A stretch of DNA of 64,000 bases from Williamsia deligens (GTDB taxonomy: Bacteria; Actinomycetota; Actinomycetes; Mycobacteriales; Mycobacteriaceae): positions 1,775,137-1,839,136 of the forward strand of contig NZ_JAMTCI010000001.1 in NCBI RefSeq assembly GCF_024171765.1. The letters are read 5' to 3'. A program made the translations under genes and the position numbers. Each line of letters opens with the position of its first letter. Positions within the stretch are counted from its first letter, which is position 1. This document shows positions 3,120 to 16,198 of this stretch, piece by piece. The notes under the pieces are model-generated. The model was not told where the DNA came from and did no database searches. It saw only the letters and a list, made by a program, of their open reading frames with translations.

Positions 3120-3920
3120 ATGGCCTCGAAGAAGAGCGTGTTCATCACCGGCGCCGCGGCGGGTATCGGCCGCAAAGCCGCCCTCTCGTTCGCCCGCAAG
3201 GGCTACACGGTCGGCGGGTTCGACATCGACGAGGTCGGCCTCAAATCGCTCAAGGACGAGATCGAGGACCTGGGCACCACCGCGGTCGTCGGCCACCTCG
3301 ACGTCACCGACGCCGACGAGTTCGCCGAGCGTCTGAAGGAGTTCACCGACACCACCGGCGGTCGCCTCGACGTGATGCTGAACAACGCGGGCATCCTCAT
3401 CGCCGGGAAGTTCGAGGAGATCAAGGTGTCGACCCTCCACAAGGAGATCGACATCAACTGCAAGGGCGTCGTCAACGGCCTGCACGCCGCGTTCCCGTAC
3501 CTCAAGGCGACGAAGAACTCGGTGGCCATCAACCTGGCGTCGGCGTCGGCGATCTACGGTCAGGCCGAGCTCGCGAACTACAGCTCGACCAAGCACTTCG
3601 TACGGTCCATCACCGAGGCGCTCGACATCGAGTGGGGCGAGCACGACATCCGCGTCGTCGCGATCTGGCCGCTCTACGTGCAGACCGCGATGACCGCGAA
3701 CATCAAGACCGGCACCACCGACCGTCTCGGCATCAAGCTCGGGCCGCAGGACGTCGCGGACCGCATCCTCGAGGCGGCCGAGCCGGGCCTGTTCAGCAAG
3801 GTGATCCACCAGGTGCACTACACGGTGGGGACGCAGACACGCATCCTGCAGGCCGGGTCGCGGTTCTCGCCGATCTACCTCACCCGCCTGGTGAACAAGT
3901 CCCTCGCCGGTGGCCACTGA
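3120..3920 (+). CDS. SDR-family oxidoreductase
   Basis: 266 aa classical short-chain dehydrogenase. Seen: dinucleotide motif TGAAAGIG near residues 10-17, NNAG, the catalytic serine in [11 protein letters not shown] and the active-site pair in YSSTKHF. The C-terminal tail beyond residue 200 carries no motif I recognise. Substrate unknown. The gene is divergent from dprE1 (105 bp between starts) and overlaps the next gene by 11 bp, so the two are probably co-transcribed. The ATG at 3120 was chosen because the Rossmann strand begins a few residues later. Confidence 0.85.
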
Positions 3921-4356
3921 GTCGACCGGCAGCACCGCGCCGATCGTCGTCAGCGCCGCGATCATCCGCGACGCGACCGGACGGATCCTGCTCGTCCGCA
4001 AACGGGGCACCACCCGGTTCATGATGCCGGGCGGCAAGCCGGAACCCGGCGAGTCGCCGCTGGACACGGTGGTCCGTGAGGTCGCCGAGGAGGTCGGGAT
4101 CGACCTCGACCCGGCCACGGTGGAGTCCTGGGGTCGGATCAAGGCGGTGGCCGCCAACGAGGCGGACACCGTGCTGCTGGCCGATGTCTTCGACTGCGGG
4201 ACGGTCGACGGCGACGGGTCGCACATCACGGTCGCGGCGGAGATCGCCGAACTCCGCTGGCACGACGTGACCGACGACGACCGCGACGATCTCGCGCCGC
4301 TCTTCGTCGACGATGTCCTCCCGATCCTCCGTCGTCAGGCCCCCGACACCCCCTGA
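3910..4356 (+). CDS. Nudix hydrolase
   Basis: 148 aa with a GTG start inside the end of the preceding SDR gene. The Nudix box is complete: [20 protein letters not shown] followed by EVGI, with all the glutamates that bind the metal. Family members hydrolyse nucleoside diphosphates linked to another moiety, including oxidised nucleotides; nothing here sets the substrate. It is followed at once by the first 21-bp repeat array. Confidence 0.85.
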
Positions 4357-4363
4357 CCCGGAC

Positions 4364-4468
4364 CCATCTGTTGGGCGGCAGGAACCGTCTGTTGGGCACC
4401 CGGAACCGTCTGTTGGGCACCCGGACCCGTCTGTGGGGCAGTAGGAACCGTCCATTGGGCGGCAGAAG
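4364..4468 (+). repeat. 21-bp intergenic repeat array A (5 direct units)
   Basis: Five head-to-tail units of exactly 21 bp, starting at 4364, 4385, 4406, 4427 and 4448. The commonest unit begins CCGTCTGTTGGGCACC and ends CGGAA. The CCGTC..TTGGGC core is held while the 7 nt after it vary. The array begins 7 bp after the Nudix stop codon. The same period and core recur at 5687-5809 and 14130-14294. Confidence 0.9.
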
Positions 4469-4810
4469 ACACTCGGCGACAATTGTGGTCGGGGTATACG
4501 GGCAGAGAAGTCGGTCTGCGGGTCGTTCTCGTCCCGCATCCCTCACTCCTCGAGGTCGGGCTCGGTCCGGTTGCACGCCGTGTGCCCACACGTCCACAAC
4601 GCCTACACAGACGTCGAGATGTTCGCGAGTACATCTCGATGAGCACCCGACGGTGTCGACGTCGGGTGCTCCTATGCCCCTCCATGCCCTGCAGGCTAGG
4701 CATCAATCCGGGCGGATTGCCCTGCGAAAACCGACTACGTCGTTCTATCGTGCGAGAACAGCGGCGCCGGCGAAAGTCGTGCCACCGCAACCGAAGGAGT
4801 GGCGCAGCGG
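4469..4810. other. Gene-free region between repeat array A and the DUF4190 gene
   Basis: With array A this makes a 454-bp stretch without a supported gene. It holds two adjacent perfect inverted repeats (4616-4637 and 4641-4671) and the leader of the following gene, including a strong AAGGAG at 4794-4799. I found no convincing ORF or tRNA in it. Confidence 0.5.
4616..4671 (+). terminator. Tandem perfect hairpins (possible terminator or structured RNA)
   Basis: Hairpin 1: GAGATGT (4616-4622) pairs with ACATCTC (4631-4637). Hairpin 2: GAGCACCCGAC (4641-4651) pairs with GTCGGGTGCTC (4661-4671) around a 9-nt loop. There is no U-run after either, so termination is only one reading; a small structured RNA or a regulatory leader is possible. 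Confidence 0.45.
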
Positions 4811-5530
4811 ATGTCGACCAACGACTCGGAGACTACGGCGCTCACCAAAACGCCCGCTTCCTCCCTACCCGACCCGATCAACGTCTACGCCGTGATCTCG
4901 CTGGTGGCAGCACTACTTGGCCTGTTCCCGGTCGCAATCGTGTTCGGAATACTGGCGTTCACCCGCCCAGTTGGTCGCGGCATCGCGATCGCCGGCCTCG
5001 TCCTGGGGATCCTCGAGCTCGCGGCGTTGCTGTTGGCGTTCTTCGGTGTGGCGAGCGCCTTCAACGACGACTCCGACTCCAGTGCCGCGCAGACGGTCAC
5101 CAGCAGCGTGTTCGAGCCGTTCATTCCGACCGGTGAGGCGGCATCAACGACCACGTCGCCAGCCCCGTCGCCCACGGAGACCGCTCTCCCGCCCACTACG
5201 ACCGCGCTGACGCAGGCAACACCAACAGCCGTGATCGGCGACTTCTGCACCGATCACGACGCTCAGGCAACAACTGCCGACGGAAGCACCGCCTATTGCT
5301 CCAGGCGCGCTGGTACCGACGCCTACCTGTGGGCTTCTAGTCCGGGACTCATTCCCAACCCCGATCTGCCGCAACAGTCCACGCCACCCGTCGGTGGAAC
5401 CGATGCACCCGTGATCGGATCACCCTGCTCCACCTCAGAGCTCGGGCAGATCCGAGCGTCGGCGTCAGGACAGCGCGTCAGATGCGGTTACACCGGGGAG
5501 GACTCAGTGCTGTGGCTCGCGCTCGACTGA
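4811..5530 (+). CDS. DUF4190-domain membrane protein with two Cys-pair modules
   Basis: 239 aa. Two hydrophobic segments (about residues 22-45 and 50-80) around TRPVGRGIAIAGLVLGILEL match the DUF4190 pattern, followed by a Thr/Pro/Ser-rich linker. The C-terminal half holds two related modules of about 38 residues, each opening with VIG..C and closing with a second Cys and a LW pair: one from VIGDFC, the other from VIGSPC. They look like a tandem duplication and probably sit outside the cell. ATG 4811 follows AAGGAG by 11 nt; the GTG at 4799 overlaps that ribosome-binding site. Codon choice is less GC-biased than in the neighbours. Function unknown. Confidence 0.75.
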   Translation: MSTNDSETTALTKTPASSLPDPINVYAVISLVAALLGLFPVAIVFGILAFTRPVGRGIAIAGLVLGILELAALLLAFFGVASAFNDDSDSSAAQTVTSSVFEPFIPTGEAASTTTSPAPSPTETALPPTTTALTQATPTAVIGDFCTDHDAQATTADGSTAYCSRRAGTDAYLWASSPGLIPNPDLPQQSTPPVGGTDAPVIGSPCSTSELGQIRASASGQRVRCGYTGEDSVLWLALD

Positions 5531-5686
5531 CCCCATTCATCTGTAGATAGAGCCCAGAATCGGCGGCACGGCCACCGGAGACTGACAGAACCAGGTTGCT
5601 ACAGGTACCCCACTTCGCCCACTACGGGTTCGCGAACAGGTTCGTCGACTCGCGCAGCGAGACGCCGACCCCGGTGTCATAGGGAG

Positions 5687-5809
5687 CCATCAGTTGGGCA
5701 GTTGGGCTGCAACAGCATCTCCGACCGCCCAACGAACGGTTCCTCGTGCCCAACGAACGGCGCCAAACGCCCAACGAACGGTTTCTGGTGCCCAACGAAC
5801 GGGATTACT
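5687..5809 (-). repeat. 21-bp repeat array B (4 inverted units plus one forward partial copy)
   Basis: Four contiguous 21-bp units at 5726, 5747, 5768 and 5789, each containing GCCCAACGAACGG, the reverse complement of CCGTTCGTTGGGC. A partial copy in the opposite direction, CCATCAGTTGGGCA, lies at 5687-5700. The last unit runs over the stop codon of the oxidoreductase at 5805. The array lies between two convergent genes. Confidence 0.9.
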
Positions 5810-7319
5810 GCAGCGCCCAGCGGGCCGAGTTGTGTCCGGGGATCCCGCTGACGCCGCCACCGCGCCGGGCCCCCGCTCCGGCGATGCTCAGGCGCGGATG
5901 ACGGGTCTCGACCCCCCACGTGCCGACCTCGTCGTCGCTCTCCGCCCACGGCCACTGCAGCGACCGGTGGAAGATGTGTCCGCCGGGCAACGCGGGTGAC
6001 ACCTCGAGGTCCAGGGGTGTCCGCACCTCGATGCATGGCTGCCCGTTCGCGTCCCGGGCGATGACATCCGTGATCGGTTCCGCGAGAACCGAGTCCAGCG
6101 ACCTCAGTGTCGCGGCCACCGCCCGCTCGCGGGAGTCGTCGGCACCGAACACACCGGGTGGCATGTGCAGCCCGAAGAGGGTGAGCGTCTGCATCCCGTC
6201 GGTGCCCGGACCGAGGATGCTGCGGTCGGACAGTGTGTGACAGTAGATCTCGCACGGCGGGACGTCCGGTACCTGCCCGCGGCTCGCCTGTTCCCACGCC
6301 GTGTGCAGCTGATCGAATCCCTCGTTCACGTGCAGTGTCCCGGAGAACGCCGCGACGGGGTCGACCCGCGGGTCGCGCAGTGCGGGCAGCCGGGTCAGCA
6401 TGAGGTTTACCTTGAGCTGGGCGCCCTGCGGATTCGTCTCGGTGTCAACAGGTTCCGACAGCACCGTGTTGAGAACGGCAGGTGCGCATGCGGCGTGCAG
6501 ACTGGAGGCCCGAGCCGCCCCGCCGCGCCACTCGACGGTCCCGTCGGCGGGGTCGACGGCGACGACCTCTGCGCTGGTGAGGATCTCGGCACCCGCGTCC
6601 AGCGCGGCCCGCGCGAGCGCCTCGGTCACCGCGCCCATGCCCCCGACGGGGACGTCCCAGTCGCCGGTGCCGTTGCCGATGAGGTGGTAGAGCAGGCAGA
6701 TGTTCTGGCGCAGTGAGGCGTCGTCGAGGTCGGCGAACGTCCCGATGAGTGAGTCGGTCGCGATGATGCCGCGGACGGTGTCGTCGCGGAACTCCCGTCG
6801 CAGCCACTCGCCCAGGGGGCGGTCGACAAGATCGGGCCACACGTCCCCGACCAGCCCCCGCGCGGTGTCCGTCGACGGCAGCGGGCGGGTCATCGTCGGG
6901 AACAGTCGCTGCGCCACCTCCGACATCGCACCGTAGAACCGTTGCCACGCATCGAAATCGTCGTCGGACCCGGTCGCCGACCGGAAGGATGCGCGAGTAG
7001 CGGCGTCGTCCTGTGCGTCGACGAGGATGCCGCGGCCCGGATCGCCGGGCACCGGTGTGTACGACGAGTAGCGGCGGCGCACCAGGCGCAGGTCGAGATC
7101 GAGGTCGGCGATGACGTGCTGCGGCAGCAGCGACACCAGATACGAGTACCGCGACAGTCTCGCCGCGACGCCGGGGAACACCGGCGCGGAGATGGCCGCG
7201 CCACCGACGTGATCGGACCGCTCGAGCACCAGCACCCGACGTCCGGCCCGCGCGAGATACGCGGCCGCGGTGAGCCCGTTGTGGCCGGCGCCGATCACGA
7301 TGTCGTCGTAGGTGCGCAC
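5805..7319 (-). CDS. FAD-dependent oxidoreductase, phytoene-desaturase/PYROXD2-like
   Basis: 504 aa. It opens with the dinucleotide-binding sequence VIGAGHNGLTAAAYLARAG, has the ARDANG / PALPGGHIFH region, and closes with the flavin-binding tail GVSGIPGHNSARWAL. This is the architecture of the phytoene desaturase/carotenoid isomerase-like family; no carotenoid genes are nearby, so the substrate is open. The GTG at 7319 starts just before the Rossmann strand. Its start is only 24 bp from that of the divergent acuI-like gene, so the two promoters must overlap coding sequence. Confidence 0.8.
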   Translation of the reverse strand: MRTYDDIVIGAGHNGLTAAAYLARAGRRVLVLERSDHVGGAAISAPVFPGVAARLSRYSYLVSLLPQHVIADLDLDLRLVRRRYSSYTPVPGDPGRGILVDAQDDAATRASFRSATGSDDDFDAWQRFYGAMSEVAQRLFPTMTRPLPSTDTARGLVGDVWPDLVDRPLGEWLRREFRDDTVRGIIATDSLIGTFADLDDASLRQNICLLYHLIGNGTGDWDVPVGGMGAVTEALARAALDAGAEILTSAEVVAVDPADGTVEWRGGAARASSLHAACAPAVLNTVLSEPVDTETNPQGAQLKVNLMLTRLPALRDPRVDPVAAFSGTLHVNEGFDQLHTAWEQASRGQVPDVPPCEIYCHTLSDRSILGPGTDGMQTLTLFGLHMPPGVFGADDSRERAVAATLRSLDSVLAEPITDVIARDANGQPCIEVRTPLDLEVSPALPGGHIFHRSLQWPWAESDDEVGTWGVETRHPRLSIAGAGARRGGGVSGIPGHNSARWALQ

Positions 7320-7330
7320 GCCCCACACGC

Positions 7331-7336
7331 TAGCGT
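7331..7336 (+). promoter_or_regulatory. -10 box of the leaderless acuI-like gene
   Basis: TAGCGT, 7 nt before GTG 7344. It sits inside the 24-bp gap between two divergent start codons. Confidence 0.5.
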
Positions 7337-7343
7337 CGATCGG

Positions 7344-8345
7344 GTGAGCACCTACTCCGCCCGCGTGGCCCGCGAATCCGACGGCGACATCACCCTGCAC
7401 ACCGAGACCGTCGACGACGACTTCCTGCCCGAGGGCGGGGTCCGCATCGACGTGACCCATTCGTCGGTGAACTACAAGGACGCCCTCGCGATCACGCCGA
7501 AGGGTGGTGTGGTGCGGAACTACCCGATCGTCCCCGGCATCGATCTCGCCGGCACCGTCGCCTCCAGCGACGACCCGGGCTTCGCGCCCGGCGACCCGGT
7601 GCTGCTGCACGGCTACGAGACCGGGGTCTCCCGCCACGGTGGGTACGCCGAGCGCGCCGCCGGCCCCGCGGACCAGATCGTCGCCCTGGGGGACGGACTC
7701 ACCCCTGCGCAGGCCGCGACGATCGGTACGGCCGGGTTCACCGCCGCGATGAGTGTGGCCGCCCTCGTCGACCGCGGACTACGCCCCGGCGACGGCAAGG
7801 TCCTCGTCACCGGCGCGACCGGCGGTGTCGGGATCGTCGCGGTCGACCTGCTGGCCGGGCTCGGTTACGAGGTCGTCGCCTCGACCGGAAAGTCCCACGC
7901 CCACGACCTGCTCACCGAGCTGGGCGCCGCCGAGATCATCGGCCGGGTGCCCGAGGATCCGGACGCGAAGATCAAGCCGCTGGGCAGCGAGACCTGGGCC
8001 GCCGCGGTCGACTGTGTCGGCGGACCGACGCTCGCCTGGGTGCTCTCGACCATCCGGTACGGCGGCGCGGTCGCGGCCAGCGGCCTGACGGGTGGGGCCG
8101 GCCTCCCGACGACGGTGATGCCCTTCATCCTGCGGGGTGTCGCGCTCCTCGGGATCGACTCGGTGCAGGCCCCGATCGATGCCCGCCGTGCGCTGTGGGC
8201 CCGTCTCGCCGACGACCTGCGACCGCCCCACCTCGACCGCATCACCACCGAGGTGGCCGTCGGCGAGGTCGATCAGGCACTCGCCGAGATCAAGCGCGGC
8301 GAGCGCATCGGCCGCACGCTGGTGCGTGTCGCCGGCGGGTTCTGA
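7344..8345 (+). CDS. MDR-family acrylyl-CoA reductase-like protein (AcuI/YhdH)
   Basis: 333 aa. Zinc-free medium-chain reductase: SSVNYKDALAITPKGGVVR and YPIVPGIDLAGTV are hallmark YhdH/AcuI sequences, and VLVTGATGGVGIVAVDLLAG binds NADPH. Known members reduce acrylyl-CoA to propionyl-CoA, which detoxifies a reactive intermediate; that specificity is inferred from family only. Leaderless GTG start. It ends 3 bp from the stop of the convergent alcohol dehydrogenase. Confidence 0.85.
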   Translation: MSTYSARVARESDGDITLHTETVDDDFLPEGGVRIDVTHSSVNYKDALAITPKGGVVRNYPIVPGIDLAGTVASSDDPGFAPGDPVLLHGYETGVSRHGGYAERAAGPADQIVALGDGLTPAQAATIGTAGFTAAMSVAALVDRGLRPGDGKVLVTGATGGVGIVAVDLLAGLGYEVVASTGKSHAHDLLTELGAAEIIGRVPEDPDAKIKPLGSETWAAAVDCVGGPTLAWVLSTIRYGGAVAASGLTGGAGLPTTVMPFILRGVALLGIDSVQAPIDARRALWARLADDLRPPHLDRITTEVAVGEVDQALAEIKRGERIGRTLVRVAGGF

Positions 8346-8348
8346 CCT

Positions 8349-9404
8349 CTACGCCGACGGGCTGACCAGGATCTTCACCGCGGTGTCGTTGTGGTCGATG
8401 AGGGTGTGGAGTCCCTCGTCGACGAGATCGTCGAGCGCGATCCGACCGGTGATGAACGGCGCGAGGTCGACGGTCCCGTCCTGCACCAGCGCGATCGCGG
8501 CGGCGTGGTCGCGGACGTAGGCGATGGTGCCGCGCAGGTCGATCTCCTTGAGCACCAGCTTCTGCATGTCGACCGTGGCTGGTGCTCCCCAGATCGACAC
8601 GTTCACCACGACGCCGGCCGGGCGGACGGCGTCGAGGACGTCGTCGAGCACCTGGTTGACCCCGGCGCACTCGAAGCCGAGGTCGGCACCGAGGCCGTCG
8701 GTGAGATCCCGGACCCGGTCCCCGATCGTCCCGTCGCGGGGGTTGAGCACGTGGTCGGCGACGCCCTGCGCGCGCTCGATGCGTGCCGCGCTCACCTCGG
8801 AGACGATGACGGTGACACCGAGACCGCGCAGCACCGCAGCGACCAGCAGGCCGATCGGACCCGACCCGCCGATGACGGCGGTCTGACCGGCCCGGGCGCC
8901 GCTGCGCTCGACGGCGTGATGCGCGACCGACAGGGGTTCGATGAGCGCGGCCTGGTCGAGCGGCATGTCGCCGACGGGATGCACCCAGCGCCGCGGGACG
9001 ACGACCTTCTCGCTGAGCCCGCCACCACCGCCGGCGAGTCCGATGAACCCCATCCGCGTGCAGAGGTGGTAGTTGCCCTCCTGGCAGGGCCGGCACTCGT
9101 CGCAGACCACATACGGCTCGACGACGACGCCGTCACCGACGGCGAGGTCGTCGACACCGTCACCGACGGCGCTGACGGTGCCGGAGAACTCGTGGCCCAT
9201 CGTCACCGGCGCGTCCTCGCCGGTGAGGGGATGGGGGTGGCCGGGGGCGGGGGTGAAGATCGGGCCCTCGAGGTACTCGTGGAGATCGGTGCCGCAGATG
9301 CCGCACCACGCGACGTCGATCGCGACGGTGCCGGCCCGCAGCTCGGGCTCGGCGACGTCCTCGATGCGGATGTCCCTGCGGCCGTGGAATCGCGCTGCCC
9401 TCAT
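8349..9404 (-). CDS. Zinc-dependent alcohol dehydrogenase, 2,3-butanediol dehydrogenase type
   Basis: 351 aa. The catalytic zinc site is seen in CGICGTDLHEYLEG and GHEFSGTV, and the structural zinc lobe in CDECRPCQEGNYHLC. The cofactor domain has AVIGGSGPIGLL. The arrangement matches (R,R)-butanediol/sorbitol dehydrogenases. The ATG is preceded by GGAGGA at 5-nt spacing. It faces the acuI-like gene tail to tail and stands alone as a transcript. Confidence 0.85.
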   Translation of the reverse strand: MRAARFHGRRDIRIEDVAEPELRAGTVAIDVAWCGICGTDLHEYLEGPIFTPAPGHPHPLTGEDAPVTMGHEFSGTVSAVGDGVDDLAVGDGVVVEPYVVCDECRPCQEGNYHLCTRMGFIGLAGGGGGLSEKVVVPRRWVHPVGDMPLDQAALIEPLSVAHHAVERSGARAGQTAVIGGSGPIGLLVAAVLRGLGVTVIVSEVSAARIERAQGVADHVLNPRDGTIGDRVRDLTDGLGADLGFECAGVNQVLDDVLDAVRPAGVVVNVSIWGAPATVDMQKLVLKEIDLRGTIAYVRDHAAAIALVQDGTVDLAPFITGRIALDDLVDEGLHTLIDHNDTAVKILVSPSA

Positions 9405-9518
9405 GATGTCCTCCTGCGGTGGGTGTGCCGGGACGGTAGGCGTGCCGCGCGAGGGGGCGACAGCGTTGCAGACCGTTGCAGCCGTCACAGGTGGGCGTTT
9501 CGACGGCGACAGGCTGGC

Positions 9519-9524
9519 TACCCT
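9519..9524 (+). promoter_or_regulatory. -10 box of leaderless selO
   Basis: TACCCT, 7 nt before the ATG at 9532. Confidence 0.5.
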
Positions 9525-9531
9525 GGACAAG

Positions 9532-11076
9532 ATGAGCGCCCCCGCCGCGATCCGTGGCCTCGTCGACCTCGACACCAGCTTCGTCCGTGATCTCGACGGC
9601 ATGTACGTCCCATGGTCGGGTGACGTCGTCCCCGACCCGCAGATCGTGGTCCTCAACGAGGAGCTCGCGCGTCAGCTCGGACTCGACCCCGATCGTCTCC
9701 GCAGCGCGGACGGTGCCGCCGTCCTCGCGGGCTCCGTCCCTCCCGCGGACACCACCACGGTCGCGATGGCCTACTCGGGCCACCAGTTCGGCAACTTCTC
9801 CCCGCTCCTCGGTGACGGTCGCGCGTTGCTGCTCGGCGAACTCGTCGACGCCGACGGGGTCCGGCGCGACCTGCACCTGAAGGGGTCCGGTCGCACACCC
9901 TTCGCCCGCGGCGGTGACGGCAAGGCGGTACTGGGCCCGATGTTGCGGGAGTACCTCGTCGCCGAGGCGATGCACGCCCTCGGCATCCCGACGACGCGCT
10001 CGCTGGCGGTGACGGCGACGGGCGAGTCGGTGCAGCGCGAGGGACCCGAGCCCGGCGCGGTCCTCGCGCGGGTCGCGTCGAGTCATCTGCGGGTGGGCAG
10101 CTTCGAGTTCGCGGTGCGACGGGGGCCGCTCGTCGTCGAGCTGACCCGCTACGCGATCGCCCGGCACCATCCGGACCTGCTGGAGATCGACGACGAACCC
10201 GATCGGGTGATCGCCTTCTTCGAGCGCGTGCTCGCGGCGCAGGCGTCGTTGGTCGCGCGGTACATGGCCGTCGGGTTCATCCATGGCGTCCTGAACACCG
10301 ACAACACGACGATCTCGGGCGAGAGCATCGACTACGGACCGTGCGCGTTCCTCGACGCCCACGACCCCGCCACGGTGTTCAGCTCCATCGACACCATCGG
10401 TCGCTATGCGTTCGGCAACCAGCCGACGGTGATCGGGTGGAACCTCGCACGGTTCGCCGAGACCCTGATCCCCCTCGTCGGCGCGCGTGAGGACGGAGAG
10501 GTCGACGCCGACGCGGCGATCTCCCGGCTGACGGAGTCGCTGTCGACCTATGCCGCGCGCTACGAGCACGAACTGGCGGCCGTCATGGCGCGCAAGGTCG
10601 GGTTGCGTCCGGCGGCCGATCCATCACCGCTCCGCGACGACGAGTCGGCCCTCCTGACCGATCTGGAGACGCTCATGCGGGTGCACCGTGTCGACCACAC
10701 GGGCTTCTTCCGCGCGCTGTCGGTCGACCTGTGGGCGCACGCCCGCGGACACGTCGACGACGACACCCCGTCGGAGACGATCGCGCTCGCCCCCGGCGAC
10801 GACACGCAGGCGTGGCTGGACCGGTGGTTCGCGGTGCTCGGCGATCGCGCGACGACGACCACCGCGGATGCGATGGACACGGTCAACCCGATCGTCGTAC
10901 CCCGTAATCACCTGGTCGACGAGGCGCTACGCGCCGGTGAGGCCGGCGACATGGGCCCGTTCCACGCGTTGTTCGCCGCGGTCACCCACCCGTTCGACAC
11001 GCCGTCGGACCCACGATTCGCCCTGCCCGCACCGGATGGTTTCGGCGACGGGTTCCGGACGTTCTGCGGCACCTGA
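9532..11076 (+). CDS. selO: SelO-family protein adenylyltransferase
   Basis: 514 aa pseudokinase-fold enzyme that transfers AMP from ATP to protein side chains and is tied to redox stress responses in the family. Seen: AYSGHQFGNFSPLLGDGRA, LKGSGRTPFARGGDGKAVL in the nucleotide-binding region, the catalytic-loop equivalent GFIHGVLNTDNTTISGESID with metal-binding D/N, and the YGPCAFLD motif. Length fits the family. The true start is the ATG at 9532; a longer upstream reading has no family similarity. It lacks the usual C-terminal selenocysteine or cysteine motif of longer SelO proteins. Confidence 0.9.
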   Translation: MSAPAAIRGLVDLDTSFVRDLDGMYVPWSGDVVPDPQIVVLNEELARQLGLDPDRLRSADGAAVLAGSVPPADTTTVAMAYSGHQFGNFSPLLGDGRALLLGELVDADGVRRDLHLKGSGRTPFARGGDGKAVLGPMLREYLVAEAMHALGIPTTRSLAVTATGESVQREGPEPGAVLARVASSHLRVGSFEFAVRRGPLVVELTRYAIARHHPDLLEIDDEPDRVIAFFERVLAAQASLVARYMAVGFIHGVLNTDNTTISGESIDYGPCAFLDAHDPATVFSSIDTIGRYAFGNQPTVIGWNLARFAETLIPLVGAREDGEVDADAAISRLTESLSTYAARYEHELAAVMARKVGLRPAADPSPLRDDESALLTDLETLMRVHRVDHTGFFRALSVDLWAHARGHVDDDTPSETIALAPGDDTQAWLDRWFAVLGDRATTTTADAMDTVNPIVVPRNHLVDEALRAGEAGDMGPFHALFAAVTHPFDTPSDPRFALPAPDGFGDGFRTFCGT

Positions 11077-11155
11077 GCAACCGTCCCGGCGGATCAGCCC
11101 GTGCCCCGTCCGAGCGCTCGGTAGGGTCTGCGTCTGTGACCACCCCACCCCGGTC

Positions 11156-11161
11156 TACCGT
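11156..11161 (+). promoter_or_regulatory. -10 box of the leaderless TetR gene
   Basis: TACCGT, 6 nt ahead of the ATG at 11168. A second candidate, TAGGGT, lies near 11122. Confidence 0.4.
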
Positions 11162-11167
11162 GGACCG

Positions 11168-11827
11168 ATGACCGACGACCTGCGTGCGACCGTCACGGAG
11201 CCGTGGCGGGACTACGAACGGTCGGAGTTGTCGGCGCCGTTGGCGGCGGCCCTGGCCGCGTTCGAGGAACAGGGGTACCACGGCACGTCGGTGCGCGAGA
11301 TCGCCGGCCGCGCGGGACTGTCGGTGCCGGGCCTCTATCACCACTACCCGTCGAAGCAGTCCCTGCTGCAGGGTCTGCTCGAGATGACAATGAACGACCT
11401 CGCCTGGCGCACCGAGGCGGCACTCGCCGCGGCGTCCGATGATCCGGTCGACCGGTACGACGCCGTCGTCGAGGTGCTGCTGCAGTTCCACATCCACCGC
11501 CGCGCACAGGCATTCATCGGATCGTCGGAGATCCGCAGTCTGGAGCCGGACTATCGACCGGTGTACACGCAGAAGCGTCGCAAGCTGCAGGGCATCGTCG
11601 ACGACCTCATCCGGGACGGCGTCCGCGCCGGCGTGTTCGTCACCGGGGACCCCGCCGACACCGGGCGCGCGATCACGACGATGTGCGTCGGCGTGTCCAC
11701 CTGGTACAAGCCCGAGGGTCGGCTGTCCGCGGACGAGATCGTCGCGCGCTTCGGGCACATCGCCCGCGCCGCGGTCGGTCACGTCGGCGACACCTCGACC
11801 GGCAGCTCCAGCACCACCAGCGTCTGA
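11168..11827 (+). CDS. TetR-family regulator
   Basis: 219 aa. An N-terminal helix-turn-helix is seen in GYHGTSVREIAGRAGLSVPG followed by LYHHYPSKQSLLQGL, the recognition-helix end typical of TetR proteins controlling acyl-CoA metabolism. The C-terminal half is helical with no further motif. It lies 42 bp upstream of an acyl-CoA dehydrogenase and a phosphotransferase in the same direction, so it probably controls that operon in response to an acyl-CoA (inference). Confidence 0.85.
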   Translation: MTDDLRATVTEPWRDYERSELSAPLAAALAAFEEQGYHGTSVREIAGRAGLSVPGLYHHYPSKQSLLQGLLEMTMNDLAWRTEAALAAASDDPVDRYDAVVEVLLQFHIHRRAQAFIGSSEIRSLEPDYRPVYTQKRRKLQGIVDDLIRDGVRAGVFVTGDPADTGRAITTMCVGVSTWYKPEGRLSADEIVARFGHIARAAVGHVGDTSTGSSSTTSV

Positions 11828-11869
11828 TCCACCCGCACCGCCGAACCGCAACGAAGAGGTCGCACCGTC

Positions 11870-13084
11870 ATGGCAGTAGAGCTCCGCTACGACCCGCAGG
11901 TCGTCGAGACCATCACCGCCACCGAGGCGTTCATCGCCGACGTGGTTCTCCCGCTGGAGGACGAGTTCGCCGGGGACTTCGAGAAGGCCGGTGGCGAGCA
12001 CCTGCGCAAGGAGTTGCAGGAGAAGGCCAAGGCGGCGAAGGTGTTCGCGCCGCATGCTCCCGTCGAGTACGGCGGTCTCGGGCTGAACATGTCCGATCGC
12101 GCACCGGTGTTCGAGGCCGGCGGCCGGTCGGTGTTCGGCCCGATCGCCCTGAACATCGGGGCGCCGGACGAGGGCAACGTCCACATGCTGTCCCACATCG
12201 CCTCGCCCGCGCAGAAGGAGCAGTTCCTCGCGCCGCTCGCCGCCGGTGACGTGCGGTCGGCGTTCGCGATGACCGAGCCCGCACCGGGTGCCGGCTCGGA
12301 TCCGTCGGCGCTGACGACCGCGGCGACGCGGGTCCCCGGCGGATGGTCGATCAGTGGACACAAGTGGTTCATCACCGGTGCCGACGGCGCGGGGTTCTTC
12401 ATCATCATGGCCCGCACCTCGGGATCGCCCGGGGAGAGCGGCGGCGCGACGATGTTCCTCGCACCCGCTCCGGACGAGGGCATCGAGATCGTGCGCCACA
12501 TGGTCACCACCGACCGCGCCGGGCTCGGCGGGCACTGTGAGATCAAGTTCCACGACCTGTTCGTGCCCGACGAGAACGTCCTCGGCGAGGTCGACGAGGG
12601 ATTCCGGTACGCGCAGGTGCGATTGGGCCCCGCCCGCATGACGCACGTGATGCGGTGGCTCGGTGTCGCCGTGCGTGCCCACGAGGTCGCCGTCGACTAC
12701 GTCGCGGGCCGGCGGGCCTTCGGTGGTCGCCTCGGCGATCTCGGCATGATCCAGCAGATGGTGGCCGACAACGAGATCGACCTCGCCGCGTCGCGGGCCC
12801 TGCTGGTCAAGGCCTGCCACGAGCTGGACCTCGGCCATCACGCCAGCAACGAGACGTCGATCGCGAAGACGTTTGCCGCGGAGGCGTATTCGCGGGTCGT
12901 GGACCGCGCCATCCAGATGTGCGGCGGTTCCGGCGTCACCGACGACCTGCCGCTCGCGCGGCTCCAGGCCGAACTGCGTCCCTTCCGCATCTACGACGGC
13001 GCCTCCGAGGTGCACCGCTGGGCCATCGCCAAGCGTGCGGTCGGTCGTGCCGCCAAGAAGCAGCAGGCACGGGACGCACGATGA
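11870..13084 (+). CDS. Acyl-CoA dehydrogenase
   Basis: 404 aa flavoprotein of fatty-acid oxidation. Seen: AFAMTEPAPGAGSDPS at the FAD/substrate face, GWSISGHKWFITGADGAG, and the C-terminal QMCGGSGVTDDLPLARL and RIYDGASEVHRWAIAKR blocks, which match the ACAD10/11-like group. It overlaps the next gene by ATGA. ACAD11-type dehydrogenases cooperate with an attached or adjacent phosphotransferase to break down 4-hydroxy acyl-CoAs; the pairing here suggests the same chemistry (inference). Confidence 0.88.
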   Translation: MAVELRYDPQVVETITATEAFIADVVLPLEDEFAGDFEKAGGEHLRKELQEKAKAAKVFAPHAPVEYGGLGLNMSDRAPVFEAGGRSVFGPIALNIGAPDEGNVHMLSHIASPAQKEQFLAPLAAGDVRSAFAMTEPAPGAGSDPSALTTAATRVPGGWSISGHKWFITGADGAGFFIIMARTSGSPGESGGATMFLAPAPDEGIEIVRHMVTTDRAGLGGHCEIKFHDLFVPDENVLGEVDEGFRYAQVRLGPARMTHVMRWLGVAVRAHEVAVDYVAGRRAFGGRLGDLGMIQQMVADNEIDLAASRALLVKACHELDLGHHASNETSIAKTFAAEAYSRVVDRAIQMCGGSGVTDDLPLARLQAELRPFRIYDGASEVHRWAIAKRAVGRAAKKQQARDAR

Positions 13085-14103
13085 CCGCGTCTGGGTCGCT
13101 GCCGGGCATGGATCCGGTTGCGCTGCGCCGGTTCCTGGTGGAGTCGGGTGTGGAGGTCGCCGGTGAACTCGACGTCCACCTGATCTCGGGTGGACGGTCG
13201 AACCTCACGTTCGGGGTCACCGACGGGACCACGAAGTGGGTGGTGCGTCGTCCGCCGACGTCGGGGTTGACCCCGTCGGCGCATGACATGAACCGGGAGT
13301 GGACGGTCACCTCTGCGTTGCAGGGCAGCGCTGTTCCCGTCGCTCCCACCGTCGCGTTCGACGCCGAGGGTTCGGTGCTGGGTGCGCCGTGCACGGTCGT
13401 CGGGTTCGTGGAGGGCACGGTGATCCGCAGTGCGTCGGAGCTCGATGCGCTCGACGACGCCGCCGTGGACCGCAATGTCGATGCGTTGATCCGCACCCTG
13501 GCCGATCTGCACGCGGTCGACCACGAGGCGGTCGGACTCGGCGAGTTCGGTCGCCCGGAGGGGTTCGTCGCGCGTCAGGTCAAGACGTGGACGCGACAGT
13601 GGGGCCTGGTGAAGACCCGCGAGCTGCCGGACGTCGAAAAGCTGGCCGGCTTGTTGGCGGAGAACATCCCGACGGATTCCGCGAACGCGATCGTGCACGG
13701 GGACTTCCGAGTCGACAACACGATCCTCGATGCCACCGACCCGGGCGTCGTCCGCGCGGTGGTCGACTGGGAGATGTCGACGCTGGGTGACCCCATCACC
13801 GACGTGGCGTTGATGTGTGTGTACCGCCAGCCCATCTTCGACCGGGTACTGGGGCTGTCGGCGGCGTGGACCAGTGACCGCTATCCCGGGACCGACGATC
13901 TCGCGCAGCGGTACGCGGTCGCCGCCGGGGTCGAGATGGCGCACTGGGACTTCTACCTCGCCCTGGCGAACTTCAAGTTGGGTGTGATCGGCGAGGGCAT
14001 CGCCTACCGCGCCCTGCAGGGCTCGTCGTCGGGTGAGGGCGCCGAGAAGGCCGCCGAGGCGACCCAGGAGTTCATGGCCGAGGGCCTGCGCGCTCTGAGC
14101 TGA
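13081..14103 (+). CDS. Phosphotransferase (APH/choline-kinase fold), ACAD11 kinase-domain type
   Basis: 340 aa. Aminoglycoside-phosphotransferase fold with the catalytic Brenner motif HGDFRVDNTI and the metal site VVDWEMSTLGDPITDVA. It overlaps the acyl-CoA dehydrogenase by 4 bp. In eukaryotic ACAD10/11 this kinase domain is fused to the dehydrogenase and phosphorylates 4-hydroxyacyl-CoA; in actinobacteria the two are often neighbouring genes. An antibiotic-resistance role is unlikely in this context. Confidence 0.85.
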   Translation: MTASGSLPGMDPVALRRFLVESGVEVAGELDVHLISGGRSNLTFGVTDGTTKWVVRRPPTSGLTPSAHDMNREWTVTSALQGSAVPVAPTVAFDAEGSVLGAPCTVVGFVEGTVIRSASELDALDDAAVDRNVDALIRTLADLHAVDHEAVGLGEFGRPEGFVARQVKTWTRQWGLVKTRELPDVEKLAGLLAENIPTDSANAIVHGDFRVDNTILDATDPGVVRAVVDWEMSTLGDPITDVALMCVYRQPIFDRVLGLSAAWTSDRYPGTDDLAQRYAVAAGVEMAHWDFYLALANFKLGVIGEGIAYRALQGSSSGEGAEKAAEATQEFMAEGLRALS

Positions 14104-14129
14104 CCCCGCCGCCCCGCAGCCCCGCCACC

Positions 14130-14294
14130 CGTCGAGTGGGCGGTTGGAGACGTCGATTGGGCGGTTGGAGACGCCGACTGGGCGGTTGGAGACGTCGACT
14201 GGGCGGTTGAGACCCCGCAGCCATCGTCTACCGCCCACTCGACGTTCCCTGGCGCCCACTCGACGTCGTTAACCGCCCACTCGACGGGTCCTGG
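14130..14294. repeat. 21-bp repeat array C (4 forward then 3 inverted units)
   Basis: Forward units at 14130, 14151, 14172 and 14193, typically CGTCGANTGGGCGGTTGGAGA. After a 17-bp spacer come inverted units at 14232, 14253 and 14274, each containing CCGCCCACTCGACG or a close form. The two halves are complementary over CGTCGAGTGGGCGG, so a long hairpin or cruciform is possible. It fills the gap between convergent genes. Confidence 0.92.
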
Positions 14295-14321
14295 TGACCA
14301 ACAGGTAGGGGTGGGGGTGGG

Positions 14322-14939
14322 TCAGCGGATGACGCGGTAGCGGAGATGCACGGTGTGCGGGGGTGCTTCGAGGACGCGTGTCAGCTCGAGGGTCGGGGCG
14401 CCCGGGGCAAAGCCGTCGAAGAGGCGTTCCCCTCCGCCGAGGATCTCGCCGCTCACCTGCAGGTCGATCTCGTCGACGAGGCCGGCCGCGATGGCCTGTC
14501 GGGCACAGGATGCCCCGCCTGCGATCGAGATCGACTTCCCGCCGGCTGCGTCCACCGCCTGTCGGTACGCGGACTCGATGCCGTCGGTGACGAAGTGGAA
14601 GGTGGTGCCACCGTCCATCTCGATCGGGTCGTGCGCGTGGTGCGTGAGGACGAACACGGGGCAGTGGTACGGCGGTTCGTCACCCCACCACCCACGCCAG
14701 TCGGAGTCACCCCATTCGCCGCGGATCGGCCCGAACATGTTGCGGCCCATGATGGTCGCGCCCATGTCGTCCATCATGTCCGACATCACCTGGCGGTTGA
14801 CCGGGTGTTCCGCGTCGGGCCCGATGTGCCAGCGGTGCAGCGCCGGCCCGCCGATTCCCAGTGGGTTGTCGGCGCTCTGGTCGGGGCCGGCGACGTAGCC
14901 GTCGGCCGAGATCGACATCGAGAGATTGGTCCTGCTCAT
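14322..14939 (-). CDS. Dihydrofolate reductase/RibD C-terminal family protein
   Basis: 205 aa. Reductase fold seen in NLSMSISADGYVAGPDQS at the N-terminus, MGRNMFGPIRGEW, and SISIAGGASCARQAIAAGLV near residue 140. These small reductases resemble the RibD reductase domain and are rarely true folate enzymes; the substrate is unknown. Its start is 60 bp from the stop of the thioesterase upstream, so it may be the last gene of the operon coming from 16738. Confidence 0.78.
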   Translation of the reverse strand: MSRTNLSMSISADGYVAGPDQSADNPLGIGGPALHRWHIGPDAEHPVNRQVMSDMMDDMGATIMGRNMFGPIRGEWGDSDWRGWWGDEPPYHCPVFVLTHHAHDPIEMDGGTTFHFVTDGIESAYRQAVDAAGGKSISIAGGASCARQAIAAGLVDEIDLQVSGEILGGGERLFDGFAPGAPTLELTRVLEAPPHTVHLRYRVIR

Positions 14940-14999
14940 GTGCTCGCTCCTGCTGCAGTCACGGGTGTCGACGGGGTAGACCGGTCCCGGCGGGAGAAC

Positions 15000-15482
15000 T
15001 CATCGCCCGACGGCCTTCTCGCCGCGCAGCGTCAGCACCGTGCTGGTCGCCGTGGCGACGATCTTGCCGTCATCGCGCGTGATCTCGCAGGCGTAGTGCT
15101 GCACCGTCGACCCCACGTGCGTCGGGTACGCCCGGGCGGTGAGGGTCCCGGCGAACATCGGACGCAGGAACGTCGTGTGCAGATCGATGCTGGTGAACGA
15201 CTCGCCCCTGCTGACGGTGGTGGATCGCGCGGTGCCGATGGCCGCGTCGGCCAGCTCCCCGATGAACCCGCCGTGCACCGTGCCCTGCTGATTGCTGTGC
15301 AGGGCTGGGTCGGTGACGACGCGCAGTGTGGCCGTCCCGTGATCCACCGCGACGACCTCGAACCCCAGCAACCGCGAGATGGCCGTCGGATAGTTCAGGA
15401 ACGTGCGGTCGTCCGGGGACAACGTGCCCGCGACATGGCGTCGCAGGTAGTCGAGTACCGACAGCTCGTCGTCGGAGCTCAT
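15000..15482 (-). CDS. PaaI-type hotdog-fold thioesterase
   Basis: 160 aa. Signature QQGTVHGGFIGELADAAIG carries the HGG turn and catalytic acid of PaaI-like acyl-CoA thioesterases; SIDLHTTFLRPMFAGTLTARA is the second conserved strand. It probably hydrolyses an acyl- or aryl-CoA. Its ATG overlaps the end of the phosphatase gene by 4 bp. Confidence 0.85.
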   Translation of the reverse strand: MSSDDELSVLDYLRRHVAGTLSPDDRTFLNYPTAISRLLGFEVVAVDHGTATLRVVTDPALHSNQQGTVHGGFIGELADAAIGTARSTTVSRGESFTSIDLHTTFLRPMFAGTLTARAYPTHVGSTVQHYACEITRDDGKIVATATSTVLTLRGEKAVGR

Positions 15483-16198
15483 CGGAACGTCATCACGTCG
15501 CGGTCGGCGGCGAGGTCGAGGTGGGCGTGGTCGTTGACGCACATCACCGACACCCCGGACCGTCCGACGATCATCTTGGTGATCGACGTGTTGACCATGG
15601 TGCGGGCGACCGTCAGCCACCGCTCGTCGTCGAGCCCCCACAGCGTCGCGAGTACCGCGGAGATGGTCCCGGCCGAGGACACCGCGATAACCGTCCGTCC
15701 CGGACCCGCGTGCGCGGTGAGCTGTTTGAGCGAGCGATCGGCGCGGGCGCGGTACTCCCGGTAGGACTCGGTCCCCGCCGAGGACCCCGCGACCCAGCCG
15801 CGGAGGTCGTCGTCGAGTCGAGCCTGAAACCGGGCTCCCTGAGCACCGGTGCCGTCGACACCTGTGCCGCCGACTCCTGTGCCGTCGACCCCTGTGCCGT
15901 CGACACCGCCGGCGGTGATCGCCCCCAGGTCGTACTCGTCCCACCCGGCGTCGACGTCGGGATCCGGGTGCTCGGCGACACCGTCGAGGATGTGCCGCAG
16001 CGTCTGTTGCTGGCGCGCGAGTGACCCGGACACCGCGTGGTCGAGGCGGTCGACACGGGCGCCGAGCGCCACACCGGCGCGACGCGCCTGCTCGACCCCG
16101 ACGGCCGTCAGGCCGCCCGCCTCGGACTGTGCCTCGGCGAGCGACCCGTACGCCTGCGCGTGGGCCTGACCATGACGGACGAGGTAGACGACTCCCAT
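15479..16198 (-). CDS. Histidine phosphatase-family protein with a pentapeptide repeat
   Basis: 239 aa. The phospho-acceptor motif VRHGQAHAQAYG starts at residue 7 and TVIAVSSAGTIS supplies the second half of the site. In most relatives the second motif has a histidine (SHG); here it reads SSAG, so activity could be reduced. Residues near 98-117 form four GVDGT-like repeats in what should be a surface loop. The gene lies 24 bp after the LecA-like gene and overlaps the thioesterase. Substrate unknown. Confidence 0.78.
   Translation of the reverse strand: MGVVYLVRHGQAHAQAYGSLAEAQSEAGGLTAVGVEQARRAGVALGARVDRLDHAVSGSLARQQQTLRHILDGVAEHPDPDVDAGWDEYDLGAITAGGVDGTGVDGTGVGGTGVDGTGAQGARFQARLDDDLRGWVAGSSAGTESYREYRARADRSLKQLTAHAGPGRTVIAVSSAGTISAVLATLWGLDDERWLTVARTMVNTSITKMIVGRSGVSVMCVNDHAHLDLAADRDVMTFR
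15849..15908. repeat. In-frame 15-bp tandem repeat in the phosphatase gene
   Basis: Four 15-bp units at 15849, 15864, 15879 and 15894 on the pattern GTGCCGTCGACACCT. Read on the minus strand they encode the pentapeptide GVDGT or GVGGT. Copy number may vary between strains. Confidence 0.88.

Follow-up and report, generated by a model that had tools for sequence, protein, structure and literature searches.

Mirror arrays of 21-bp repeats and an AbiEi-like predicted nuclease in Williamsia deligens: a candidate enzyme-repeat system

Repeat arrays A, B and C in the window

The window, a stretch of 64,000 bp of the Williamsia deligens genome, harbors three arrays of a short tandem repeat, which we refer to as A, B and C. 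Array A (positions 4360 to 4464, plus strand) consists of five units with cores at 4365-4376, 4386-4397, 4407-4418, 4428-4439 (a TGTGGGGC variant) and 4449-4460, and a Nudix-like gene (3910 to 4356, plus strand) stops 3 bp before it. Array B (5727 to 5801, minus strand) contains four cores at 5727-5738, 5748-5759, 5769-5780 and 5790-5801 and is met by the 3' end of a phytoene-desaturase-like FAD gene (5805 to 7460, minus strand). An ORF of 243 aa (4799 to 5530, plus strand) is located between A and B; it was not called by our codon-usage gene script and matches DUF4190 weakly (20.7 bits vs a Pfam cut-off of 35). Array C is flanked by a phosphotransferase-like gene on the left (13108 to 14103, plus strand) and a dihydrofolate-reductase-like gene on the right (14322 to 14939, minus strand), these functional names, like those of the Nudix-like and the FAD gene, having been assigned by eye.

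Arrays B and C are mirror arrays. In C, a plus-strand half (14130 to 14204; cores at 14130-14141, 14151-14162, 14172-14183 and 14193-14204) faces a minus-strand half (14233 to 14286; cores at 14233-14244, 14254-14265 and 14275-14286) across a centre of 28 bp (14205 to 14232), of which the length class is conserved and the sequence little conserved. In B, the four minus-strand cores are preceded, 27 bp ahead of the first of them, by a lone plus-strand unit with the core CATCAGTTGGGC (5688 to 5699); this gap corresponds to the commonest spacing class described below, and the unit, being single, is outside the mirror-pair count. Judged by comparison with the relative G004, where A and B adjoin at a distance of 28 bp with no ORF between them, A and B are the left and right halves of one mirror pair.

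The exact 21-bp period that the original prediction had assigned to the three arrays was confirmed by TRF, which delimited A at 4360-4465 (5 copies), B at 5727-5802 and C at 14130-14213 and 14228-14286, all with period 21. The motif TGGGC-N16-TGGGC occurred 11 times in the window, while 100 shuffles gave 0.25 on average (maximum 2), and CGTNNNNTGGGC occurred 14 times, compared to 4.98 (maximum 10). The proposed core is thus a real motif, but one base too short, the true core being A or C followed by CGTNNNNTGGGC; a two-unit pattern with the three variable bases as initially described had zero matches across the window's genome.

Dispersal and mirror geometry of the arrays

The corrected two-unit pattern matched the window's genome (G000; 4.41 Mb, 9 contigs) 123 times (58 + 65), while the reversed pattern, which served as control, matched twice (1 + 1); with three units, there were 68 matches vs 0. 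All eight genomes analyzed from the GTDB genus contained the two-unit pattern (6 to 176 matches, control 0 to 2), and a stricter form (the CGTNNNNTGGGC pair) was present in 13 of 201 genomes of the family, belonging to 4 of 31 genera. The motif is hence not confined to the window, but occurs genome-wide, in all eight genus genomes and in these 13 family genomes. For further analysis, we took 33 regions around matches from the own genome, in which 53 arrays of at least two units and 183 units were scored; single-unit arrays were left out of this set and of the mirror-spacing count.

The usual form in the own genome is a plus array facing a minus array. To the 33 regions we added 23 from G004, G007 and G006 for the analysis of spacing, the two G006 regions yielding no pair. 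Among adjacent arrays separated by less than 150 bp, 30 were arranged plus/minus, four minus/plus and one minus/minus. The gap between the innermost cores of the 30 plus/minus pairs was 26-28 bp in 21 cases and 16-18 bp in six, the others measuring 58, 91 and 93 bp; after removal of a duplicate (L216, identical to L198), 29 distinct pairs remained, of which 20 fell at 26-28 bp, six at 16-18 bp and three at 58-93 bp. In the own genome alone, seven of 13 pairs were at 26-28 bp, five at 16-18 bp and one at 93 bp. The two gap classes are about one helical turn apart, and their concentration at a period of 10, 10.5 or 11 was matched by 0 of 5000 random draws from the same range, a comparison that treats the pairs as independent, although some may be orthologous sites and hence not independent. 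It had been proposed that a protein could bind every unit on the same face of the helix; indeed, the 21-bp spacing suits such a protein, and the 27- and 17-bp classes lend the putative protein further support.

The mirror centres are little conserved, with a mean identity of 0.36 (inner 17 bases of 15 centres) vs 0.30 in shuffled centres, which reached the observed value in 0 of 200 shuffles; L031 and L224 have most of the centre in common and may be orthologous. Given the slight resemblance among the 27-bp centres, their constant length may be due in part to common descent. In 32 of the 53 arrays, the core of the outermost unit follows ACC or CCC; before the core of inner units, ACC was found in 2 of 130 cases and CCC was outside the twelve commonest. 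The mirror elements therefore seem to have defined ends.

Based on gene calls made with our own codon-usage script, 31 of the 53 arrays are located in convergent gaps, 18 in tandem gaps, two in divergent gaps and two within a called ORF. The proposal that the arrays lie just after gene ends therefore applies to many, but not to all of them. For comparison, 5 of the 38 intergenic gaps in the window are convergent. A strict rule by which an array has the direction of its neighbouring gene was rejected, as 13 of the 18 tandem arrays agree with it and five disagree, and as some mirror pairs sit between non-convergent genes. An overlap of an array with a called ORF was seen in L052 and in L057; since a 21-bp unit preserves the reading frame, these could be in-frame insertions or false gene calls. 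We also observed a plus array beyond an RNase-H-like gene in G002, G003 and G005 (L211, L212, L213); in G002 and G003, it directly precedes the orthologue of the window gene at 7344-8345, a position at which it is absent in G001.

The sequence versions of the arrays, originally regarded as specific to their loci, turned out to be two genome-wide sub-families: 39 of the 53 arrays, including C, are nearer to type I (ACGTCGAGTGGGCGGTT...), and 14, including A and B, to type II (CCGTCTGTTGGGCGGCA... or CCGTTCG...), with a few near the border. The related idea that units are copied within a locus is only weakly reflected in identity, although whole-unit copy changes separate relatives, the arrays of two orthologous nuclease-locus pairs differing by gaps of 42 and 62 bp, or about two and three units; the identity difference is slight (within- vs between-array identity of 0.79 vs 0.75 for type I and 0.74 vs 0.72 for type II). 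The site orthologous to array C carries type II-like arrays in G004 and G007, which indicates that one site can change class. Between the orthologues of A and B, G007 has a sequence different from that of G000, with an ORF on the other strand. By eye, this ORF (L196 about 650-1400, G007:C1) appeared nitrilase-like. Because G000, G004 and G007 all have arrays at both A/B and C, most copies may be old and inherited. Site C is without an array in G001, G002, G003 and G006, in which the sequence beyond the gene differs and no insertion boundary is readable, and the stretch from G005 stopped short of the site; neither a clean empty site nor a target duplication was found at sites A/B and C in the relatives compared.

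Nuclease-like genes between mirror arrays

In four regions of the own genome, a gene is located between the array halves (L041, L045, which corresponds to A/B of the window, L053 and L061). The genes of L041 and L061 encode the same kind of protein, a predicted nuclease, and its ORF is the only one called between the arrays. The L041 gene, P0001 (C1:815582-816463), lies between type I mirror arrays, and P0003 (C3:19579-20445), 71% identical to P0001, between type II mirror arrays; by unit similarity, arrays A/B pair with P0003 and array C with P0001. A third nuclease of the same genome (L081) is located between mirror arrays of CGACCGTGC type, a motif with few dispersed copies (six two-unit matches, one at the gene and five at three other sites). 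Within L053 (G000:C1:2491300-2496500), an FAD-dependent oxidoreductase gene (P0002; 2025-3147 of the region) is positioned between type I mirror arrays in a nuclease-like arrangement.

The array-bracketed gene encodes a protein of about 295 aa, of which the N-terminal part is AbiEi-antitoxin-like and the C-terminal part resembles the homing endonuclease I-Bth0305I. At E ≤ 0.01, the 29 aligned members matched MTES_1575 (29 of 29), AbiEi_1 (18) and DUF559 (18), P0001 and P0003 scoring below Pfam's own cut-off, and no transposase family was among these matches. The PADLOC AbiEi profile likewise matched all 29 members, and E187, E191, D224, D237 and H242 are invariant across the 29 rows. An AlphaFold model of the L116 protein (39 sequences, mean pLDDT 89.5) was compared by Foldseek, which returned nothing below E 1e-3: the best match was the AbiEi antitoxin Rv2827c (E 1e-3) with a poor overlay (TM 0.39, rmsd 9.1), and the catalytic domain of I-Bth0305I (3r3p) ranked third (E 8e-3, TM 0.76 by target). 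Sequence matches to solved nucleases were weak (E 0.11 and 0.27). On the basis of these profile and fold matches, we regard the N-terminal part as AbiEi-like and a putative DNA-binding domain, and the C-terminal part as a predicted nuclease with a Vsr-like catalytic fold and conserved acidic and histidine residues. MTES_1575 is a Vsr-type nuclease by its description in PMC3710099, Rv2827c binds two sets of inverted repeats according to PMC7319586, and the EDxHD enzyme I-Bth0305I is described as forming a dimer on a target nearly 60 bp long (PMC3943268).

The nuclease was found at E ≤ 1e-30 in 83 of the 201 family genomes, including all 13 with the CGTNNNNTGGGC pair. We examined the flanks of nuclease loci by an orientation-aware test made without assuming a motif. 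Of 32 loci from genera g1, g9, g11 and g17 (at least 36% identity), 30 showed 27-396 inverted 12-mer matches between their flanks, compared to 0-19 direct ones, and in L074 and L098 an array was seen on a single side. The 20 further loci, which come from other genera or are distant paralogues in the same genomes, had 0-24 inverted matches, 0-38 direct matches and no 21-bp arrays on both flanks; among them, L106 and L108 lack arrays although they score as high as the array-bearing L107. In Williamsia soli (L132 / L098), a stop codon breaks the nuclease frame and both flanking arrays remain.

A contig scan confirmed 231 related loci, the best 80 of which were analyzed by a fixed two-sided array rule; many loci of the flank test coincide with these 80, so that the counts are not additive. 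The rule classified 36 of the best 80 as two-sided, three as partial and 41 as failing. All 36 Williamsia/Gordonia loci within this set have period-21/22 arrays on at least one side and 33 on both, with L123 and L142 (partial) and L120 (upstream array only) as exceptions. Three Nocardioidaceae loci have two-sided 22-bp arrays and one (L166) is partial; the remaining 40, mostly from Mycobacterium and Nocardia, fail, and the Mycobacterium, Nocardia and Rhodococcus homologues among the best 80 are without arrays. Two of the failing 40 deserve mention: L180, from an Actinomycetales MAG, has inverted GGTGATCATGAAATCCCGGTTCA copies around the gene at a spacing of about 44 bp, and L172 has inverted matches but no tandem units.

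In a tree of 81 rows (79 of the best 80 and two own-genome loci, with L132 excluded for its broken frame and the root set for drawing only), the Williamsia/Gordonia loci fall on one side of a branch with support 97/88, the Nocardioidaceae are placed elsewhere and 38 array-less loci form a third group. One of the records counted with the 36 Williamsia/Gordonia loci is labelled Kitasatospora but groups beside W. muralis. A wide-flank test for other periods flagged 5 of 63 loci, namely L085 and L091 (20 bp) and three Nocardioidaceae loci (22 bp). L085 and L091 are distant homologues in G004 and G000 that are bracketed by inverted 20-bp arrays of their own, about CCCGCTCCACTTCCAGGGTT, a type of which G000 contains one dispersed copy, G004 three and six other genomes none. 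A 19-bp array at L086 was detected by looser tests only.

We then asked how array motifs correspond to nucleases. The period-21 motif CGNCGACAG, read beside three Gordonia nucleases, was predicted before the search to be dispersed in those genomes. As predicted, it matched 19 times in G093, 77 times in G106 and 82 times in G151, compared to 0-1 matches in 11 other Gordonia genomes searched, and 0-2 in four genomes of other genera; among the matches listed, the bases after CGNCGACAG fit the flank of the own nuclease, with CGC in G106 and mostly CAA in G151. Similarly, CGNCGACCGTGC had 9-22 matches in six g11 genomes with a matching nuclease and one and none in two without. The exception is G120, with 38 two-unit CGNCGACCGTGC matches and a best homologue of only 127 bits that lacks arrays, perhaps due to a lost gene or an assembly gap. 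Across the 31 loci with period-21 arrays at both flanks, the upstream and downstream arrays of one gene were 0.75 alike, compared to 0.51 across different genes; the own downstream array was the best match to the upstream array in only 18 of the 31, with close orthologues among the competitors. Over these 31 loci, motif similarity tracked protein identity (Mantel rho 0.25, a value that none of 2000 permutations reached).

The flanking genes of the P0001 locus (L041) align on both sides in five Williamsia records (L116, L119, L121, L125 and L126) and on one side, among the lines listed, in L124. The motif of this locus is unchanged in L116 and different in the other aligned records (L067, L068, L075, L077 and L094 in the flank test). 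Given shared neighbours and differing motifs, the gene seems to have stayed at its inherited position as its motif changed.

A proposed nuclease-and-repeat system and its alternatives

The genomes tested thus carry, except for G120, gene-less arrays with the motif of their own nuclease, and the two-part protein is encoded in cis between mirror arrays of 21- or 22-bp units. Linkage, matched motifs, mirror polarity, quantised spacing and unit turnover were all observed. Repeat clusters and a bracketed, predicted nuclease that changed with them point to an unrecognised partnership of enzyme and repeat in actinobacteria. The arrays are probably the non-coding component, scattered over the genome, of a system of nuclease and repeats that resembles REPIN/RAYT, with a homing-type nuclease taking the place of the transposase, and we infer that the nuclease binds, cuts and spreads them. 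In such a system, the AbiEi-like N-terminal part would bind cooperatively to tandem units along a single DNA face, and two groups of the protein would face each other over the 17- or 27-bp centre, where their nuclease domains could dimerise in the style of FokI or I-Bth0305I. A cut or nick at the centre would be repaired from another array copy; this copying could homogenise units, convert the array type at a site and spread arrays, and repair at the centre might open it to genes. By analogy with homing genes, arrays with and without a gene resemble an occupied and an empty state of the same target. The full picture has, in our judgement, an even chance of being correct: an undescribed class of selfish or domesticated element, in which an AbiEi-fused homing-type nuclease would recognise its own mirror arrays as a dimer over a phased centre, spread and homogenise them by break repair, switch motif at a fixed locus and be able to carry genes in the centre.

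Among known systems, the arrays share most with REP/REPIN and RAYT (REPtrons), as described in PMC3116915 and PMC3733652: dispersed extragenic repeats form mirror pairs, an enzyme gene is flanked by repeats and one genome may hold several repeat-specific enzyme genes. In our case, too, extragenic mirror pairs belong to repeat classes matched to a cis-encoded enzyme, again except in G120. However, RAYT is a Y1 HUH tyrosine transposase, while the protein described here is AbiEi-like and EDxHD/Vsr-like; REP is an imperfect, folding palindrome of 20-40 bp, while the units here are tandem, 21-22 bp long and, in five that were folded, without a significant hairpin (z -1.3 to +1.4 vs shuffles); and the inner spacing here falls into two classes one helical turn apart. 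Since enzyme class and palindromic unit both fail, we set the arrays apart from REPIN/RAYT despite the similar working. In addition, there was no Rfam match above the gathering score over window positions 3800-15000, and, in agreement with the original prediction, we found no named family for the repeat, none of those tested fitting it. Among the open-access texts examined, none described a nuclease-array pairing of this kind.

The CGTC-tagged REPs of alpha-Proteobacteria also form extragenic mirror dimers, and no dedicated transposase is known for them (PMC3733652). According to the same source, they are palindromic, with a stem of 8-9 bp and an unpaired CGTC tag, and rarely grouped; the five units folded here show no such stem, and the resemblance in CGTC is probably chance. 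With the EDxHD homing endonuclease I-Bth0305I, the modelled protein has the fold of the catalytic domain and a multidomain architecture in common, and the nearly 60-bp target (PMC3943268) is comparable with the 41- or 51-bp span of core, centre and core. The nuclease gene lies inside a mirror array, which may or may not correspond to a homing gene in its split target. In contrast to EDxHD homing endonucleases, no intron was noticed at the loci, an AbiEi-like part is fused to the nuclease and the putative target, a repeat array, occurs at dozens of sites. The resemblance to AbiEi antitoxins such as Rv2827c lies in the PADLOC profile, the best Foldseek match and the binding of inverted repeats by AbiEi proteins (PMC7319586). 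An AbiE type IV toxin-antitoxin system has an adjacent gene for the AbiEii nucleotidyltransferase toxin; inside the bracketed elements of L041 and L061, no second gene was called, and the nuclease is fused. Tn7-type transposon ends contain several protein sites of about 22 bp in mirror orientation. They resemble our arrays in the mirror-oriented repetition of units of similar length; unlike at Tn7-type ends, no transposition gene was called between the halves here, and there are dozens of gene-less copies.

Alternatively, the nuclease could have been domesticated by the host, with the arrays as its landing sites on the chromosome, for instance to deal with torsion or collisions between convergent genes or as a mark of self-DNA, their spread being incidental and old. 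The prevalence of convergent gaps (31 of 53 arrays vs 5 of 38 window gaps) and the conserved surroundings of the P0001 locus, which shares both flanks with five other Williamsia records and one flank with a sixth, would fit such a function, as would the outcome of a vector search, in which there was no phage match, none was confirmed in viral contigs and plasmid matches were only distant. Convergent gaps may, however, simply tolerate insertions, a motif that turns over while its locus stays put and copy changes by whole units suggest conflict-like dynamics, and the array type at site C differs between species, so that we consider landing sites unlikely.

It is considerably less probable still that the arrays act as transcription terminators or as hairpins at mRNA 3' ends, their facing halves forming one long stem. 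Array C does fold as RNA at -123 kcal/mol (z -9.4), yet any inverted array folds, and the five single units folded are no better than shuffles. The position of many arrays in convergent gaps and the 13 of 18 tandem arrays that point away from the upstream gene would agree with a terminator. On the other hand, arrays exist in divergent gaps, and this function leaves the nuclease linkage and the one-turn step in spacing unexplained. An intrinsic terminator, i.e. a GC hairpin followed by a T run, was sought and rejected: none of the three window arrays has a terminator-like site, and the two found within 4300-5850 fall inside the ORF.

We find it just as hard to believe that the dispersed arrays are an operator set and the AbiEi-like protein only a transcription factor, with the nuclease domain serving something else. 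Arrays are indeed located upstream of the nuclease gene, and binding of AbiEi antitoxins to inverted repeats within their own promoters is reported in PMC7319586; but a mirror array lies downstream of the gene as well, and only two of the 53 own-genome arrays are in divergent gaps. Finally, ordinary minisatellites generated by replication slippage without any protein would account for unit numbers that differ between relatives, but hardly for the recurrence of one motif at dozens of unlinked sites, its mirror polarity, the quantised gaps between inner cores or the linkage to a nuclease, and we reject plain slippage, as dispersed nuclease-matched motifs and the flank survey of the best 80 loci contradict it.

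If the proposed nuclease-and-repeat system is real, it would, with its related 19-, 20- and 22-bp sub-families, extend broadly across actinobacteria as a counterpart to REPIN/RAYT. No other bacterial pairing of an enzyme with a scattered population of short repeats is as well known as REPIN/RAYT, and an unrelated second one that relies on a homing-type nuclease would indicate that partnerships of this kind have evolved repeatedly. Naturally matched nucleases and presumed binding sites, available in many motif versions, could reveal how DNA recognition changes and would offer a simple target design of a dimer across a spacer, and the arrays could serve as a test bed for why repeat populations persist in small genomes.

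Apart from the arrays, the window contains a separate 15-bp tandem repeat, CACCTGTGCCGTCGA, at 15844-15907 (4.3 copies according to TRF), which is located within a called coding frame.
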